A DNA stretch of 64,000 nucleotides from positions 1 to 64,000 of the forward strand of contig JAMCWJ010000050.1 in NCBI GenBank assembly GCA_023475105.1, in the 5' to 3' direction. The stretch comes from Nitrospirota bacterium. Lineage in GTDB: Bacteria > Nitrospirota > Thermodesulfovibrionia > Thermodesulfovibrionales > UBA9159. The notes beneath the pieces are model-generated. The model was given only the letters and a program-made list of their open reading frames with translations. It did no database searches and was not told where the DNA came from. Below are positions 23,731 to 25,084 of this stretch, in pieces (within the stretch, counting starts at the first letter, position 1; the number at the start of each line of letters is the position of its first letter). The position numbers and the translations under genes were made by a program.

Positions 23731-24258
23731 TTATCGTGATGCCCGTCGTTTCGACCCGGCATGACCGAGATACGTCCGGAATTCATGCTCGAAGTTATCG
23801 CTCAACACCCCCTTGCCCATGGCCTTCCGTATCTCCTCCGGACTCCAGAATCTCACCTCATCTATCTCTTCCCTGTTGAAGGTCACATCGCCGGGGTCGG
23901 TGCAACGGTAAGTCGTAACCAGCTCGGTTTCATAAGGGTTCGTATGGGTGTAGGCGTAGAGAAATTCGAGATCGCAGGCCGCAATGCCCAGTTCTTCCTC
24001 CATCTCCCGCCTTGCCGAGGTGACGAGATCTTCCCCGACGGCAACGTGACCTCCTACCGAAGTGTCCCATTTCCCGGGTGCGACATCCTTCCTGCGGGAA
24101 CGTTTCTGCAGAAGCAGTTTCCCCTCAGGGTCAAAGACGAGGACATGGACCACCTTGTGGATGAGGGAAGGATTGCCATGGATCTCCGACCTCCAGCCGA
24201 GTCCGATCACTTCACCCGCTTCGTTGACGATCTCCAGTTGTTCTTCCGGTTCCGGCAT
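23731..24258 (-). CDS. NUDIX hydrolase (YfcD/isopentenyl-isomerase-like)
   Basis: A 175-residue protein with a complete Nudix box from about residue 76: GHVAVGEDLVTSARREMEEE followed by LGI, matching GX5EX7REVXEEXGU. Upstream, NEAGEVIGLGWRSEIH and GNPSLIHKVVHVLVF are typical of the YfcD/IDI-like subgroup. Nudix enzymes cleave nucleoside diphosphates linked to other groups; the substrate of this subgroup is uncertain. ATG 24258 is chosen over a TTG at 24276. A good minus-strand promoter lies at 24375-24403. Confidence 0.9.
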   Translation of the reverse strand: MPEPEEQLEIVNEAGEVIGLGWRSEIHGNPSLIHKVVHVLVFDPEGKLLLQKRSRRKDVAPGKWDTSVGGHVAVGEDLVTSARREMEEELGIAACDLEFLYAYTHTNPYETELVTTYRCTDPGDVTFNREEIDEVRFWSPEEIRKAMGKGVLSDNFEHEFRTYLGHAGSKRRASR

Positions 24259-24374
24259 CACCTGTTCCCGACCCAACTATAACCTTCGGCTTCACAAACT
24301 GCCACGTCCAGGGCGGACAGAGCAGCCCGATAAGCATTTTGCAGCGATTCCTTACGGCATCGGAAGCCACAAGA

Positions 24375-24661: not shown

Positions 24662-24862
24662 CTAGACTTTTACTACGTTTACCGCTTTCGGACCCTTCGG
24701 GCCGTCCACGATCTCGAAGCTCACTGCCTGCCCTTCGGACAGGGATTTGAATCCATTGTCCTGGATGGCAGTATAGTGGACGAACACGTCTCCGCCGTCT
24801 TCCTTGGTAATGAATCCGAAGCCCTTGGACTCATTGAACCATTTAACGGTCCCCTTCTCCAT
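24662..24862 (-). CDS. cold-shock domain protein (CspA family)
   Basis: A 66-residue single cold-shock domain that binds single-stranded RNA and DNA. RNP1 (KGFGFI) and RNP2 (VFVHY) are intact, with the usual [13 protein letters not shown] opening and the [11 protein letters not shown] end. Length is standard. The start has an AAGGAGGTG site. The leader is long and structured (see 24863-25047), as in cold-inducible csp genes. Whether this copy is cold induced cannot be read from the protein. Confidence 0.97.
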
Positions 24863-25047
24863 GCACTACACCTCCTTGCTGAAAAAATTCTTCAAAGCGT
24901 AGAACCTTTGAAGTACTAATGAAGATTACGGAATCCGCCATAAAAAAAGCCGCAAAGTCCAAAGTCTTTGCGGCTATATTCGGCGATATACGACAAAAAC
25001 TTCCGAAACTTCATTCTTACTATTACATAAAATCCGAAAAAGGTCAA
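24863..25047 (-). promoter_or_regulatory. csp promoter and about 150-nt leader with two terminator-like hairpins
   Basis: On the minus strand a promoter reads TTGACC at 25047-25042, 16 bp, then TAATAG at 25025-25020. The start site near 25013 gives a leader of about 150 nt. It contains a 10-bp stem (AGCCGCAAAG/CTTTGCGGCT, about 24947-24975) followed by a run of seven T. It also contains an 8-bp stem (CTTCAAAG/CTTTGAAG, 24890-24913) followed by AATTTTTT. Both look like intrinsic terminators inside the leader. No other minus-strand gene upstream needs them, so they are candidate attenuators or cold-responsive folds. Confidence 0.6.
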
Positions 25048-25084
25048 GATGCCGGATTGCCTGTTTCTTCCTCTTCCCCGCTCC

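Follow-up and report, generated by a model that had tools for sequence, protein, structure and literature searches.

A conserved leader of cold-shock genes in Nitrospirota, shared with RRM, rpsU and deaD genes, is a candidate transcription attenuator

Background

Cold sensing and the setting of cold-shock protein (Csp) levels are poorly known in bacteria beyond enterics and bacilli. In the attenuators of the pyr operon and of ribosomal-protein leaders, mutually exclusive antiterminator and terminator pairings precede the gene, and in cyanobacteria rbpA1 is linked to rpsU.

The leader of Escherichia coli cspA (Rfam RF01766) is described as a translational thermosensor in the part of PMC9947658 consulted. 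In Bacillus subtilis the leaders of cspB and cspC carry 'cold shock boxes', and point mutations in or near the box of cspC suppress a csp double mutant, according to the sections consulted of PMC8307031. The Csps of E. coli affect terminators and can antiterminate (PMC11648934, PMC9765468), and loss of B. subtilis CspB/CspD increases read-through at some terminators and decreases it at others (PMC8307031); in the consulted parts of these papers there is therefore precedent for either sign of Csp feedback. Ribosomal-protein leaders are described in PMC7247131, the consulted main text of which mentions neither S21 nor rpsU. The cyanobacterial RRM protein Rbp1 is required for cold adaptability in Synechocystis, as stated in the available part of PMC9333190.

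Results and Discussion

The window, the whole stretch of 64,000 nucleotides analyzed (Nitrospirota contig JAMCWJ010000050.1, positions 1 to 64,000), carries a csp gene at 24662-24862 on the minus strand, to which all leader coordinates given below refer. The gene encodes a cold-shock protein of 66 aa, recognized from its ORF and from NCBIfam Csp models whose matches were all below the cut-offs, and is one of seven csp genes in this genome; a NUDIX gene lies beside it (23731-24276, minus strand). A sigma-70-type promoter (TTGACC - 17 - AATAGT, with TG before the second hexamer) was predicted at 25019-25047, placing the start near 25012 and giving a leader of about 150 nt from predicted start to the csp ATG at 24862 (about 25012-24863). 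An initial annotation of the window had noted two stems followed by T runs in this leader, and both were found: H1 (24948-24975) has a stem of 10 bp with 6 GC pairs and then a T-run (the U-run of the transcript, 24942-24947), and H2 (24890-24913) has a stem of 8 bp with 3 GC pairs and then AA and T6. It had also held that no upstream minus-strand gene needs a terminator there, in agreement with the ORF list, where the likely genes upstream of the leader start on the plus strand only. The window leader thus holds what defines an attenuator by position, a terminator-like hairpin with a U-run between promoter and start codon, and it folds better than its dinucleotide shuffles (z -2.63; 1 of 200 shuffles as good). 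Within 3 kb around the leader, terminator-like sites were no more numerous than expected by chance (3 found, 3.1 expected), and their count was set aside as evidence for the hairpins.

No Rfam 15 family matched the window leader alone, or the non-csp leaders scanned, at gathering score. A match of 88.4 bits to the cspA thermoregulator family (RF01766) ran through the csp coding region, and the leader alone (24863-25060) gave no RF01766 match up to E 5; identity with this family was discarded, as the match is lost without the coding region. The window leader resembles that of E. coli cspA in being a structured csp 5' leader able to take alternative folds, but differs from that translational thermosensor in being dominated by a terminator-like hairpin and an alternative pairing. 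With the csp leaders of B. subtilis it has in common the possession of conserved leader elements, although the sequences of the cold shock boxes are probably different. As in the pyr and ribosomal-protein attenuators, mutually exclusive pairings can be drawn ahead of the gene; unlike those, the csp leader has no recognized ligand domain, and the genes it precedes encode RNA chaperones, an RNA helicase and S21. The cyanobacterial rbp genes, which encode RRM RNA-binding proteins, are comparable in that an RRM gene is grouped with a cold-type response. The leader was not described in the titles and abstract openings of the open-licence literature searched.

To follow the leader in related genomes, 116 distinct csp leaders were collected, reduced to 76 by filters (motif score of at least 13, length, no N) and to 67 by removal of near-duplicates. 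The motif-score filter selects for the 5' motif, whose conservation among the 67 leaders is therefore in part a consequence of the filter; the P1 3' strand, P3 and the U-run (see below) had no part in the selection. The aligned csp leaders have in common GAAGUUUCRGAAGUUUUUGU as the 5' strand and a hairpin built as GCCRCAAAG-loop-CUUUGYGGC, after which U mostly follows. They also share a strand further on that complements the 5' end, and the Shine-Dalgarno-like sequence AAGGAGGU (24870-24877 in the window). Promoter-like hexamers with a score of at least 8 were found upstream of 64 of the 67 leaders, with a gap to the leader start of 5-8 nt in 48 of these 64; as shuffled upstream sequences often reached this score as well (209 of 335), the weight rests on the narrow promoter-to-leader spacing. 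Across the 67 leaders the transcript appears to begin at the leader 5' end. A start downstream of both hairpins, which the initial annotation had named as evidence against its own reading, is not what is predicted: the promoter of the window lies upstream of both, and the narrow spacing recurs in most of the 67 leaders.

A perfect terminator-like hairpin was present within the first 100 nt in 41 of the 67 csp leaders and in 26 of 670 shuffles. The other 26 leaders failed this strict test and the U-run after P3 is missing in several class II leaders, indicating that termination is not universal. H2 lies outside the conserved element. Of the 43 leaders whose length allowed the test, only that of the window itself has a similar hairpin ahead of the ribosome-binding site, and the nearest relative (L037) has a different sequence at this position; H2 was therefore rejected as part of the element. 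Conservation of the stems in related genomes, which the initial annotation had proposed as a check, was thus observed for H1, with compensatory changes, and H2 is peculiar to the window.

The csp leaders were aligned in two classes, class I (27 rows, alignment A2) and class II (24 rows including the window, alignment A5, from which the mis-trimmed row L090 was left out), because MAFFT on all 67 misaligned the P1 3' strand, RNAalifold seeing only P3. The rows of both alignments and of the 28-row seed of the core model R3 were picked by hand. H1 corresponds to pairing P3 (AGCCGCAAAG with CUUUGCGGCU), identified by hairpin search, covariation and shuffles. P1 is a long-range pairing that encloses P3 and joins the leader 5' end (GAAGUUUCGGAA, 25001-25012, the predicted 5' end of the transcript) to a strand shortly before the ribosome-binding site (UUCCGUAAUCUUC, 24921-24933). 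In a swap test the energy of P1 strands with their own partners was -11.0 kcal/mol, compared with -8.7 kcal/mol when swapped, and 0 of 2000 permutations were as low. P1 was 90.4% paired and P3 96.6% in class I, with a covariation score of 0.239; the shuffles gave 0.203, and none of 500 scored as high. Class II contains in addition P1b, a 6-pair helix (GUCGUA, 24989-24994, with UAUGGC, 24937-24942) paired in 92.0% of cells, and scored 0.265, with 0.201 for the shuffles and none of 500 reaching the real value. P3 in the 28 core rows was 93.9% paired and showed 26 two-sided changes, where shuffles had 6.0; shuffle controls for covariation ignore relatedness, and the slid versions, all much lower, therefore matter too. 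P1 and P3 covary.

The strand AAGUUUUUGU (24993-25002), the proposed antiterminator strand, can form an alternative pairing, P2, with RCAAAGACUU, that is, with the P3 5' arm and the first loop bases (GCAAAGACUU, 24962-24971 in the window). Since the P2 3' strand overlaps the P3 5' arm, P2 and P3 are mutually exclusive, as in a transcription attenuator. Pairing of P2 amounted to 92.9% in class I; in the 28-row core set it was 93.9%, whereas slid versions reached 47-70%. Its strands hardly vary and no covariation was detected in class I or in this mixed core set, and in the swap test on csp leaders 187 of 2000 permutations were as low. In class II P2 was 82.2% paired and beat shuffles on three measures (5, 6 and 2 of 500). 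Covariation of P2 is weak overall and present only in class II. Complementarity of the P2 strands exceeded that of shuffled 5' strands in 11 of 11 non-csp main-type leaders (p <= 0.04) and in 4 of 8 divergent RRM-rpsU leaders (p < 0.05), a test biased in favour of P2 because all rows were found by R3 and 7 of the 11 main-type rows are in the R3 seed. In folding calculations the nascent RNA of the window was predicted to be in P2 at 56-60 nt between 10 and 65 C, with P3 displacing it at 64-72 nt, sooner when hot. Across the 28 cores the P2/P3 balance showed no consistent temperature shift. In the majority of these cores P3, once complete, was predicted to dominate at 10 C as well as at 37 C; the suggestion of the initial annotation that the stem simply melts with temperature is not supported.

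The first 87 loci fetched with covariance models R1 and R2 (L136-L222) all had csp directly after the leader, a count in which several places were found twice and which rests on models made from csp leaders. We also deliberately fetched matches lying elsewhere than at known csp genes, and these yielded further csp genes as well. The leader was found ahead of rpsU (L048, L225, L231, L238, L240, L285, L290, L332, L345), of genes for RRM proteins (L051, L334), of a DeaD-type helicase gene (L234) and of a gene for an unknown csp-linked protein (L052, L053, L223, L226, L228, L235, L294; L053 by eye). A match ahead of glnB (L229) was judged to be due to chance. In the window's own genome a leader at C5:9742-9797 heads an RRM gene, the second copy of rpsU and deaD, and Pfam searches on relatives of these proteins confirmed RRM_1, Ribosomal_S21 and DEAD/DbpA/DeaD_dimer. 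The element is therefore common to csp and to RRM-rpsU-deaD, rpsU and deaD genes. An unfiltered scan of 20 loci with lower-scoring rpsU copies gave five matches at E < 1e-4 (one of them, L347, csp-led), seven more weak ones at E 2.6e-4 to 0.041 and one further at 0.69, and none of 30 main-copy rpsU loci had a leader match below E 0.27. The rpsU, RRM and deaD leaders seem by eye to lack P1 but keep P2, P3 and the U-run.

The unknown csp-linked protein, of about 100-130 aa, is encoded directly after csp in many genomes (L243, L245-L251, L253-L257 and others); it matched no Pfam family and no NCBIfam family above cut-off. In L223 and L294, where csp is reduced to a remnant, its gene is the first full one behind the leader.

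Labels of close records place the window in Nitrospirota, near Thermodesulfovibrionales. R1 gave matches in 46 of 61 genomes of the order, R2 in 85 of 245 genomes of the phylum and R3 in 89 of 121 genomes of the order; the window leader scored 77.9 bits with R2 and 67.6 bits with R3. The phylum of a Syntrophus-labelled genome, which we take to be Desulfobacterota, had matches in 19 of 247 genomes with R2 and in 29 of 297 with R3, and 16 of the 17 R3 matches of at least 40 bits were ahead of csp. In a control of 199 genomes of the Trichococcus phylum the best R3 match was 32.9 bits and none reached 40 bits, a difference from the csp leaders of B. subtilis, and none of the six control loci fetched holds csp, S21, RRM or helicase genes. 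Listed near-complete genomes of genus g15 of family f9 had no R2 or R3 match, though csp was present in the one checked (L026).

The best reading of these data is that the leaders represent a new, apparently undescribed attenuator RNA family that serves a cold-type regulon and is present in Nitrospirota as well as in a minority of Desulfobacterota. The csp leader itself is probably a cis-acting transcription attenuator of this regulon, and the complementary strand upstream of the terminator stem makes conditional attenuation plausible. The initial annotation had proposed a conditional attenuator with both hairpins; this proposal finds partial support for H1, which is a conserved terminator-like hairpin with a complementary upstream strand in a leader common to cold-type genes, and none for H2. 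The attenuator-like hairpin seen earlier is real, the two partner strands that would turn it into a switch and the sharing with other cold-type genes being additions of the present analysis.

Actual termination, cold response, control by Csp, the nature of the ligand and the direction in which it acts are inferred along the following lines. RNA polymerase would start at the P1 5' strand, and the antiterminator strand would pair first with the emerging arm of P3, forming P2. If P3 displaced P2 while the polymerase was on the U-run, transcription would end with the release of a short RNA, about 70 nt long; if P2 persisted, or P3 were blocked, csp would be transcribed. The leader of the read-through mRNA would then refold into P1/P1b and P3, and the ribosome-binding site would lie beyond the stem. 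The most likely control would be exerted by the free pool of Csp or related RNA chaperones, biasing the choice between P2 and P3: ample Csp may keep the U-rich strand single so that P3 forms, and cold or RNA overload may draw Csp off, upon which polymerase would read through into csp and, elsewhere in the genome of the window, into RRM-rpsU-deaD. P1 lies too far downstream to affect termination at P3, and its conservation therefore needs another role. It is conceivable, and we suggest it tentatively, that the pool of free cold-shock RNA chaperones is sensed by one family of RNA attenuators, which thereby co-ordinates the whole cold regulon (several csp genes and the RRM-S21-DeaD operon) across Nitrospirota and part of Desulfobacterota, through transcription termination rather than translation as in E. 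coli.

The leader could instead act after transcription, the long 5'-end hairpin of P1, P1b and P3 protecting the mRNA or tuning translation and the U-run being incidental. The covariation of P1 and its position at the predicted 5' end would be accounted for in this way, as would the class II members that retain the structure without the U-run, and E. coli cspA acts through leader structure and translation (PMC9947658, part consulted). We nevertheless find this explanation rather doubtful, since P1 leaves the ribosome-binding site free and is the very pairing apparently dispensed with in the rpsU, RRM and deaD leaders. A positive feedback, in which P3 of the nascent RNA is opened by Csp or by the DeaD helicase, each thereby antiterminating its own gene, has a parallel in the action of E. 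coli CspA, CspC and CspE at other terminators (PMC11648934, citing Bae 2000, in the section consulted), and agrees with the U-rich single strands flanking P3 and with the sharing of the leader with deaD and RRM genes. It seems unlikely, however, because the conserved P2 complementarity would be left without reason and because CspB/CspD of B. subtilis favour termination at several sites (PMC8307031, part consulted).

An intrinsic thermoswitch, with the exchange from P2 to P3 too slow in the cold and hence read-through without any protein, is likewise unlikely. The predicted probability of P2 in the window RNA at 64 nt does drop between 10 C (0.50) and 37 C (0.06), but the shorter core of the window, with most of the P1 strand omitted, shifts the opposite way at the earliest cut, and the lack of a consistent shift over the 28 cores, in calculations of equilibrium folding, led us to discard a general equilibrium thermoswitch. 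It is highly improbable that a transcription factor uses the inverted repeat as an operator on the DNA, the RNA pairings being by-products: a conserved palindrome just downstream of the promoter would look alike, but at the loci checked the gene lies behind the leader on the same strand, and the U-run, the long-range covariation of P1 and the P2 complementarity would be unexpected. A conserved leader that csp has in common with the RRM-rpsU-deaD operon would allow a cold regulon to be defined by sequence alone, and would provide a compact candidate attenuator for examining Csp feedback with purified components.

Several other loci carry parts or variants of the leader. In L330, L331, L333, L335, L336, L337, L346 and L348 a divergent leader, different in sequence but similar in layout (terminator and complementary strand), lies ahead of RRM-rpsU or rpsU. 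A leader copy in L224 (G018:C4:25213-25324, minus strand) has no gene behind it, and a further terminator-like hairpin comes next; the copy may represent either a small RNA or a relic. In L038 (G001:C65) the promoter and the leader 5' strand occur without csp and now stand ahead of a NUDIX gene resembling that of the window. Minimal csp leaders were found in L055, L077, L081 and L086, where the 5' strand GAAGUUUYGGAAGUUUUUU runs directly into the ribosome-binding site with no hairpin, suggesting a possible independent role for this strand.
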